Assembly: GCF_017309385.1 (NCBI RefSeq)
Contig: NZ_JAFJMJ010000004.1
Coordinates: 496,001-560,000, forward strand
Origin: Amycolatopsis sp. 195334CR
GTDB taxonomy: Bacteria > Actinomycetota > Actinomycetes > Mycobacteriales > Pseudonocardiaceae
DNA length: 64,000 nt
Direction of reading: 5' to 3'
Shown: positions 52,901 to 55,900 of the stretch, one piece after another
Layout of the letters: each line of letters starts with the position of its first letter
Position numbering within the stretch: position 1 is the stretch's first letter
Translations under genes and position numbers: made by a program
Notes under the pieces: generated by a model
Told to the model about the DNA's origin: nothing
Seen by the model: the letters and a program-made list of their open reading frames with translations, nothing else
Database searches by the model: none

Positions 52901-55900
52901 GTCGCGGCAGGACGTCGGGCCGCACGACAACTTCTTCGACCTCGGCGGGCATTCGCTGCTGCTGATCCGCATGCACACCGCGCTGACCGAGGCGTTGCCG
53001 GTGACCGTGCCCTTCGCCGAGTTGTTCCGCCACACCACGGTCAGCACGCTCGCCGCCCACCTGCGCGAACTCGCTGAACCCGTCACACCGAAGGCCGTTG
53101 TGAAGGAGGAGAAACCGGTGCGCAGCAGCGAGAAACCCAGCGCCCGCGAGAACGACATCGCGGTCATCGGCATGGCCTGCCGGTACCCGGGCGCGAGCAG
53201 CCCCGAGGAGTACTGGCGGGTGCTGCTGGACGGCCTCGAAACGATCACCACCGCCACCGCGGACGAGATCCGCGCGGCGGGGTTCGGTGACGACGCCTTC
53301 GCCGAGGACTTCGTGCCGCGCGGTGGCGCGCTCCAGGGCATCGAGTACTTCGACGCGGGCTACTTCGGCTACAGCCCCAGCGAAGCGGAGCTGATCGACC
53401 CGCAGCAGCGGCTGTTCCTGGAGTGCTCGGCCGAGGCGCTGCAACGCGCCGGGCACGACCCCGAGCAGTTCGAGGGCGGCATCGGCGTCTACGCCGGGGT
53501 CGGGCACAGCGACTACATGTGGCACAACACCTTCGTCAACCAGGAGACGGTGCCGAACTCCAACGGCGCGCACCTGCTGATCTCCTGGGACAAGGACCAT
53601 CTGGCCACCCGGGTTTCCTACAAGCTGAACCTGCGCGGCCCGGCGATGACCGTGCAGACCGCGTGCTCCACCTCGCTGGTGGCCACCCACGTCGCGGCCC
53701 GCGCGCTGCTCGCCGGCGAGTGCGACATGGCGCTGGCCGGTGGCGCGTCGATCCTCATCCCGAACGTCGGCTACAAGTGGGTCGAAGGCGGGATCTTCAG
53801 CCCGGACGGGCACTGCCGCCCGTTCGACGCGGCTTCGCAGGGCACGCTGCCGGGCAGCGGCGTCGGCGTGGTGGTGCTCAAGCGGCTGGCCGACGCGCTC
53901 GCCGACGGCGACCCGGTGCACGCGGTGATCCGCGGTTCGGCGATCAACAACGACGGTTCGGCGAAGGTCGGCTACACCGCGCCGGGCGTGGCCGGGCAGG
54001 CCGCGGTGATCCGGAAGGCGCTGGCCGCGGCGGGCACCGAACCGGGCAGCATCGGGCTGATCGAGGCACACGGCACCGGCACGGTGCTCGGCGACCCGAT
54101 CGAGGTGACCGCGCTGACCCAGGCGTTCACCGAGCACGGCCCGCTGCCGCCCGCGTCGTGCGCGCTCGGCTCGGCCAAGTCCAACTTCGGCCACCTCGGG
54201 ACCGCGGCCGGGGTCGCCGGGCTGATGAAGGCGGCGCTCGCCGTCGAGCACGGGGTCGTACCGCCGTCGCTGCACTTCGAACGCCCGAACCCGAACACCG
54301 ATCTCGACGGCAGCCCGTTCTTCGTCAGCAGCGAACCGGCCGCTTTCCCCGGTGACGGCCCGCGTCGCGCGGGTGTCACCGCACTGGGCATCGGCGGTAC
54401 CAACGCCCACGTCGTGCTGGAACAGCCACCGGCGCGGCAGCCGTCGACGCCCGGTCGGGGCTGGCAGATCCTGCCGCTTTCCGCCCGCAGCCGCGGTGCG
54501 CTGGACACCGCGACCAAGGAACTGGCCGACCACCTCGCCGGGACACCGGACACCGATCTCGCCGACGTGGCCTACACGCTGCAGCTCGGCCGGACCGCGC
54601 TGGACCAGCGCCGGGTGGTGCTGGCCAAGACCACCGCCGAGGCGGCCGAACTGGCCCGCGACGGCGGGGAGGAGTTCCTGCGGGTTCGCGAAAGCGGTGA
54701 CGCGCGGAGTTCCTGGACGCTGGTGCTGCCGGGTGCTTTCCCGGTCGCGCCGGGCAGGCTGGCGAAGCTGTACTGGCGGCTGCCGGTGATCCGGGCCGCG
54801 GTCGACGAGTGCTGCGACCTGCTCACCCCGGGCCTCGGCGCCGACCTGCGCGAGTCGGTGTTCCTGGCACCCGCCGACGATCCGGTGGACCCGGGGTTCG
54901 AGAAGGCCGCGCGGTTCGTCACGCTCTACGCACTGGCCCGCGGCCTGACCGAGCTGGGCCTGCGACCGGACGAGATCGCCGCGTCCGGCGCCGGTGAGCT
55001 GGTGGCCGCGTGCCTGACCGGCGTGCTGGACCTCCAGCAGGCGGTGTCCGTGCTGCTGGGCCAGGGCGCGCCGGAGGCCGGTGCCGCGCCGGAGATGCCG
55101 TGGAGTTCGGTGGCGTGCGACGGGTTCGTCACCGAGGACGAGCTGGGTGATCCGGAGTTCTGGACCGACGGCATCTGGGCCGGCGGCGACTTCGGCGAGG
55201 TGCTCGAACCGCTGCTGGACGACCCCGCGCAGGTGCTGGTGGTGGCGGGCGCGACCGGTTCGGTGCCGGGCTGGGAACCGCCGTCGGGTGAGCTGGTCGA
55301 GGTGCTGCCGGAGGACTCGGCCGACGCCGAGTACGACTTCGCCGCGGCGCTGGGCAGGCTGTGGCTCTCCGGTGCGGTGGTGCACTGGAAGTCGTTGTTC
55401 GAGGGACAGCGGCGGGCGCGCCTGCGGCTGCCGACCTATCCGTTCGAGCGCAACCGCTACTGGCTGGAGCCGCCCGCCGAGGCGAAGCCGTCGGCGATCG
55501 CGGTACCGGCGGGCGAGCGCGTCGCCGATCCGGCCGACTGGTTCTACGCGCCTTCGTGGAAGCGCGCCACCCGCCCGGTGGCGACCGGCACCGGCGGCAC
55601 CTGGCTGGTGGCCGGCATGGACACGATCGCCGGTGACGTCGCCGAACTCGGTGCCGACCGGGTGATCCCGGTCCACTGGGGACGGTCGTTCGCCGATCTC
55701 GGCGAGGACGGCTACCTGGTCGACCCGGAATCGCCCGCCGACTGGGAACGCCTGGTCGAGGCGCTGCGGGATGCCGGCGAGGCGCCTGACCACATCGTGC
55801 ACGGCGCCGGGGTGATGGACGACGACACCGCGCCCGGTGGTTACGACTCGTTCCTCGGTGTGCTGTTCCACGCCAGGGCGCTGGCGAAGGCCGGGGTCAC

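Follow-up and report, generated by a model that had tools for sequence, protein, structure and literature searches.

Assembly lines in which some polyketide synthase (PKS) modules carry their own acyltransferase (AT) and are loaded in cis while others are loaded in trans are already known. In the parts of the sources available to us, a catalogue finds both kinds of module in 122 PKSs and 351 hybrids of PKS and nonribosomal peptide synthetase (NRPS) out of 8799 (PMC10394414), and the kirromycin PKS/NRPS combines trans modules (KirAI-KirAV) with cis ones (KirAVI) and discrete ATs (KirCI and KirCII) (PMC5818483). According to the same kind of partial sources, irumamycin module 12 is a terminal module with an inactive AT (AT12) in an otherwise cis line (PMC11672594), and barnesin BrnE/BrnF couples an amino acid to a malonate extension on an AT-lacking module that ends in a thioesterase (TE) (PMC13096860). 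Here we analyze a PKS-NRPS gene cluster that probably shares these traits, located in a stretch of 64,000 nucleotides (the window, C4:496001-560000) of the 9.9-Mb genome of Amycolatopsis sp. 195334CR. Its terminal module retains a truncated AT devoid of a nucleophile, called AT0 below, and the cluster also encodes a discrete AT preceded by its own ketosynthase (KS)-AT linker. We propose, with a probability of roughly 0.56, that AT0 is a fixed pseudo-AT kept as a scaffold and that the carrier domain of the module is charged with malonate in trans, most likely by the discrete AT.

The cluster also departs from the systems just cited. The kirromycin trans modules have no integrated AT, whereas the present cluster has one module with a truncated AT, and its discrete enzyme belongs to the cis-type linker-ATs. 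For irumamycin, the neighboring AT11 is the proposed loader and the available text does not mention a discrete AT (PMC11672594); for barnesin, FabD loads, the AT gene lies outside the cluster, and no AT remnant is mentioned in the available text (PMC13096860). Canonical trans-AT modules, as far as the accessible passages describe them, resemble the terminal module in having a KS with a linker remnant and in receiving malonyl in trans (PMC11907408, PMC11775670), but this remnant is all that they keep after the KS, whereas the terminal module also keeps the large AT subdomain. The titles, abstracts, and passages covered, among them few subscription papers, contained neither a subdomain-excised AT kept together with a discrete linker-AT nor a graded series of AT loss, and the new part of our results is the anatomy of AT0 and such a series.

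The terminal module comprises the following features.
49986-57983, + strand: terminal module, C-A-T-KS-AT0-KR-T-TE.
53151-54404, + strand: KS with Cys-His-His present, the most conserved domain (91% identity between genera).
54405-54710, + strand: KS-AT linker domain, retained (alignment).
54711-55430, + strand: AT0, the truncated and nucleophile-less AT (Pfam, alignment, and AlphaFold2 [AF2] model).
54987-54989, + strand: Gly codon where the nucleophile Ser is expected (alignment).
55065-55088, + strand: junction at which about 88 residues are gone, namely, the whole ferredoxin-like subdomain with the catalytic His (alignment).
55416-55493, + strand: post-AT linker (LPTYPFERNRYWLEPP), retained (alignment).
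55524-56813, + strand: ketoreductase (KR) in which the Asn of YxxxN is changed to Ala in 3/3 orthologs (alignment).
56964-57188, + strand: carrier domain (T) in need of an extender unit.
57216-57968, + strand: terminal TE.

Alignment of AT0 with the intact ATs of PKS1 and PKS2 revealed that ASGAGE replaces GHSxGE, the nucleophile Ser having become Gly (residue 1762 in the stop-to-stop frame P0001, or 1668 from the GTG at 49986, a start that we infer because of its overlap with the PKS2 stop codon and because of the N terminus of P0003). The malonyl-binding Arg that follows the nucleophile helix and the His of HAFH both fall inside a clean gap of 88 columns. A preliminary description of this DNA, made from its letters, had already called this last AT dead and proposed cis loading for two modules; the motif alignment agrees with it on the Gly in place of Ser and on the loss of the HAFH region, and shows the ATs of the two upstream PKS modules to be intact. 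The absence of PGQGSQ, which it had also listed, is less telling: AT0 indeed has LPGAFPV at the FPGQGSQ position, but this is a weak sign by itself because AGFGKL stands there in the discrete AT and SGVGDQ in that of PKS2, and related discrete ATs vary at this site too. PF00698 (Acyl_transf_1) gave no match to AT0 at an E value of 0.001, with 14 other families matching the terminal-module protein, and none of the 44 matches of a genome-wide PF00698 search falls at the place of AT0. With its active-site residues gone, AT0 still comprises ∼240 residues of AT-like sequence, and its large subdomain is predicted to fold in an AF2 model with a mean predicted local distance difference test (pLDDT) score of 52.2, built on a seven-row alignment and poor in its KS part. 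The AT motif names used here, apart from GHSxGE and xFHS, follow common usage. GHSxGE and xFHS are given as AT motifs in the available part of PMC11775670.

The lesion is old and conserved. It is the same in the window, in close copies of the cluster found in two other genomes among the 390 searched (G100, A. dendrobii, and G332, Saccharomonospora glauca), and in P0003 of Saccharothrix sp. AJ9571; because four strains from two or more genera share it, a sequencing error or a recent pseudogene is ruled out. The G100 and G332 AT0s recur in P0004 (Amycolatopsis sp. FU40) and P0005. Identity to the AT0 of the window is 88% in A. dendrobii and 70% in S. glauca, and the corresponding ratios of nonsynonymous to synonymous substitution rates (dN/dS), simple pairwise Nei-Gojobori counts that carry no confidence limits, are 0.23 and 0.37 for AT0, 0.32 and 0.38 for KR, 0.16 and 0.11 for KS, and 0.12 and 0.25 for TE. 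AT0 is under purifying selection, neutral decay being ruled out by these pairwise counts. The earlier idea of a module caught part-way through AT loss is not supported for this lineage: a truncated AT that is stable across genera at 70% identity, with a dN/dS of 0.37 near that of KR, is a settled domain rather than one caught decaying. Among the best 120 of 1452 matches, none was an ortholog of the terminal module with an intact AT, and the next matches are at most 34% identical over their best stretch.

The discrete AT and the genes that precede the terminal module are arranged as follows.
26755-28050, + strand: discrete AT of malonyl type (KS-AT linker plus AT, 431 amino acids [aa]; PF00698 match of 116 bits).
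28068-28832, + strand: type II thioesterase, next gene downstream of the discrete AT (relatives' proteins, PF00975).
28833-31750, - strand: A-T and ATP-grasp genes.
33877-45375, + strand: PKS1/NRPS with an intact cis-AT (AT at ∼35458-36486; GHSIGE, HAFH).
45403-49989, + strand: PKS2, KS-AT-KR-T, with an intact cis-AT (AT at ∼46999-48102; GYSVGE, HAFH).

The free-standing malonyl-type AT, which the preliminary description had placed at the head of the cluster, is confirmed as a gene of the cluster, although the minus-strand genes at 28833-31750 intervene, so that it does not form a single gene run with the PKS genes. The protein consists of its own KS-AT linker followed by a full AT in which Ser188, Arg213, and HAFH (residues 284 to 287) are invariant in 5/5 discrete ATs; its AF2 model has a mean pLDDT of 87.7, and its dN/dS values are 0.14 and 0.23. 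It was found in 3/3 clusters checked, each time with the thioesterase gene directly after it. That thioesterase is 89% identical to the A. dendrobii protein, for which the PF00975 match reaches 153.6 bits, and 80% identical to the S. glauca protein, and AT and thioesterase domains are fused in some relatives of the discrete AT (P0132, P0133, P0135, P0137-P0139, and P0142). Judged by its closest solved relatives, which are of the cis type (CurL, 163 bits; ClbI, 162; ZmaA, 156; compared with 86 for PksD and 63 for a FabD-type enzyme), the discrete AT is a cis-type linker-AT and is neither FabD-like nor of the FabD/PksD type of canonical trans-AT PKSs. Acyl hydrolases have the malonyl-binding Arg replaced, mostly by Gln, according to the available part of PMC11775670; since Arg213 is kept in 5/5 discrete ATs, the protein reads as an AT rather than as an acyl hydrolase, which we do not favor. 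The trees disagree on its origin, two of them grouping it with the PKS2 AT and other discrete ATs (supports 96/92 and 90) and a third leaving it alone on a long branch.

In the mechanism that we propose, AT0, which has neither the nucleophile nor the malonyl-binding Arg and has lost the small subdomain entirely, catalytic His included, would act as a scaffold that maintains the KS-linker-AT-linker arrangement. The discrete AT would load malonate onto the terminal T, and the type II thioesterase encoded next to it would act as an editor. The KS, which is intact and highly conserved and hence suggests that the module still extends the chain, would add two carbons to the aminoacyl chain, and the TE would release the product. 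The two PKS modules would thus be loaded in cis and the last one in trans. The conserved discrete AT has no other obvious PKS client in the cluster. Three features of a mixed cis/trans-AT PKS-NRPS can be read from the sequence: intact cis-ATs in PKS1 and PKS2, where the motifs of Ser, Arg, and His are all present; a KS module whose AT cannot work, that of AT0; and a discrete AT encoded in the cluster, in 3/3 clusters. The fourth, charging of that module's carrier by the discrete AT, is predicted. The KS type was dropped as a sign of trans loading, the KSs of the dead module and of PKS2 sharing their closest solved relatives.

We then asked how widespread such domains are. Among 158 related proteins, a scan for KSs whose following AT lacks the nucleophile motif flagged 16 units, comprising four orthologs, two units that are not truncated (P0098, with GHSQSE, and P0101, with GASMGE and full length), and truncated nucleophile-less ATs in 10 further proteins (P0012, P0028, P0031, P0053, P0062, P0085, P0088, P0096, P0108, and P0120). 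An AT0 profile built from ten truncated domains outscored an intact-AT profile only on motif-less units, motif-bearing units scoring at least 62 bits lower, among the best 40 of 262 units with the training domains included; another unit of P0101, P0116, and P0032 also scored above zero in this comparison and were left out of the inspection. With at most six candidate places scored per genome, the profile matched (E 1e-40) at least 34 places in at least 30 of the 390 family genomes; because scoring was limited in this way, all counts of truncated or discrete ATs given here are minimum values. The 34 places consist of the 3 orthologs, 20 loci taken with flanks of 20 kb, or less near contig ends, and 11 matches to the C-terminal half only, which were left out. 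The nucleophile motif is absent from the AT in 14/20 loci, and in G201, G245, and G252 it is retained in an AT that is short and without the His motif; this residue-by-residue check leaves out G240, G364, and G383. The G245 AT0 (L072-L075, G245/G240) keeps GHSIGE without the His motif and the subdomain, and that of G240 is near-identical. A tree of intact and truncated ATs needs 10 changes between the two states, so that AT loss by this route seems recurrent, with the caution that this was a short search without bootstrap, that dead domains sit on long branches, and that the truncated G383 was labeled intact. The window AT0 groups with the AT0s of P0053, P0031, P0108, P0062, and P0085. Truncated ATs of this shape recur in Pseudonocardiaceae.

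Two further arrangements were seen among these loci. In G145, G118, G128, and G019 (L067, L069, L063, L065, and neighbors), the last protein of the NRPS cluster is a separate KS-AT0 that carries neither T nor TE and whose KS has Cys-His-His; no AT was found within the stretch examined, which in G128 is cut by the contig end, and a role of KS-AT0 in release or cyclization is possible. In G003 (L070, L071, and L110), two KS-AT0 modules occur with no intact AT within 80 kb.

A discrete-AT profile was run over the 390 genomes with at most four places scored per genome, a free-standing AT being an open frame of up to 560 aa, and yielded at least 10 free-standing discrete linker-ATs among the matches listed. 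Seven of these 10 lie with an AT-deficient KS, namely, the three orthologs, G190, G238, G110, and G214. The discrete ATs of G190, G238, and G110 form one clade (100/100), and the KS modules beside them retain ∼214 residues of AT in G190, a short relic in G238, and none in G110, where the linker is fused to the post-AT linker; in G214, elsewhere in the tree, the AT is likewise gone and the linkers are fused. No other AT was found in the stretch examined for these four genomes (the whole 44.6-kb contig for G190 and 40 kb for each of the others). The G190 discrete AT has one TGA in the profile-matched span, its frame as read being open for 455 aa. The remaining three (G113, G213, and G227; L116-L117, L120-L121, and L124-L125) directly follow NRPS genes. 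As a control, we chose by hand, from C1 contigs in the discrete-AT profile list, 10 loci in which an AT of this kind is integrated; G056 was not counted (FabF-like KS only) and G144 was counted through its second KS, the motif of its other module being GHSLGA. Within the loci of G331 and G104, which also hold a KS-AT module, A-T-KS proteins without an AT have the linker fused to the post-AT linker (L132-L135).

The alternative that survives best is that PKS2, the module just before, or else PKS1 charges the terminal carrier with its own intact AT and that the discrete AT has another task. We consider it unlikely, but several observations speak for it and weigh against our proposal. The truncated AT shares its polypeptide with an intact one in 10/10 of the further proteins and in 9/20 loci, and another polypeptide is the only source of AT in four more, so that 13/20 truncated-AT loci have an intact neighboring AT and no discrete linker-AT (in two of these 13, G240 and G245, a FabD-like AT-carrier protein takes its place); a discrete linker-AT is the sole supply in one locus, G190, and six have no AT in the stretch. 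The irumamycin case, in the part of the report available, offers a precedent in AT11 serving a module with an inactive AT (PMC11672594), and no KS lies within 20 kb of 3/10 listed discrete linker-ATs (G113, G213, and G227). Moreover, an AT-deficient PKS-type KS was present in 4/10 control loci, which makes the association by locus weak; 7/10 against 4/10 are numbers too small to carry weight, with no statistical test, and because the control loci were selected for an intact AT, an AT-deficient KS lacking such a neighbor could not turn up among them. On the other side, the terminal module sits on its own polypeptide without another AT, and the discrete AT is retained in 3/3 clusters despite the intact ATs of PKS1 and PKS2. 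Loading by a neighboring AT is common in the family, and the discrete AT is still the most likely loader of the terminal carrier, as far as gene content and motifs can tell.

A second alternative, which we regard as quite improbable, is a module without extension activity, in which AT0 and the KR are relics and the KS just hands the chain to the carrier and the thioesterase. The KR does carry a second lesion, which also counts against our proposal, since loss of the catalytic Asn may mean that the module is degenerate overall: YSAAA or YAAAA replaces YxAAN (Asn to Ala) in 3/3 orthologs, and the KR is doubtful because of this change, the Asn being kept in the normal PKS2 KR. KR and AT0 are, in addition, among the least conserved domains. 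Against this stand the Cys-His-His of the KS, its degree of conservation, the highest of any domain in the module (91% identity between genera), and its dN/dS of 0.11; nonelongating KSs have usually lost one His. The keto group of the final unit may persist, or this module may add no unit at all. Equally improbable is charging by the primary-metabolism malonyl transferase FabD, which has a precedent in the AT-less NRPS-PKS of barnesin A (PMC13096860, available in part) and would suit the 6/20 loci with no AT in the stretch as well as the presence on contig C1 of a free-standing AT frame (318 aa) that may be FabD, but which leaves the conserved discrete AT without explanation.

Beyond the window, discrete linker-ATs accompany AT loss in other lineages, to judge from the loci compared, and AT-deficient modules beside ordinary ATs are also common. 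A broader reading, tentative and on balance less probable than its opposite, is that truncated ATs form a recurrent, selected class of pseudo-ATs, in which many lineages have excised the small subdomain but retained the linker and the large one, and that in three Pseudonocardiaceae lineages a freed, linker-bearing cis-type AT serves such modules, giving stages from cis to trans loading. Within this reading, the stages would be a truncated AT in the window and in G190, an AT mostly gone in G238, and one entirely gone in G110 and G214, linker joined to linker.

Other genes of the cluster encode a class V aminotransferase, MbtH, an NRPS that extends past the window end, and a formyltransferase-like protein (57980-59539) in which PF00551 matches only residues 78 to 152, followed by a long C-terminal part of unfamiliar type. 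The latter gene is conserved in 3/3 clusters, with 84% and 70% identity in the two close-copy genomes and 38% for the next match in the 390 genomes. The product of the cluster is not named in the available part of a Saccharomonospora survey (PMC7990883).

The route from a self-loading module to dependence on a separate AT is both a practical and an evolutionary question, and in PKS engineering, discrete ATs are being tried as substitutes for cis-ATs that are dead (PMC6164871, available in part). The loci described here offer natural intermediates: a dead AT as a candidate scaffold, ATs trimmed to various extents, and discrete ATs with their own linker. Such intermediates would show which parts of an AT are dispensable and what a discrete AT needs in order to serve a former cis module.
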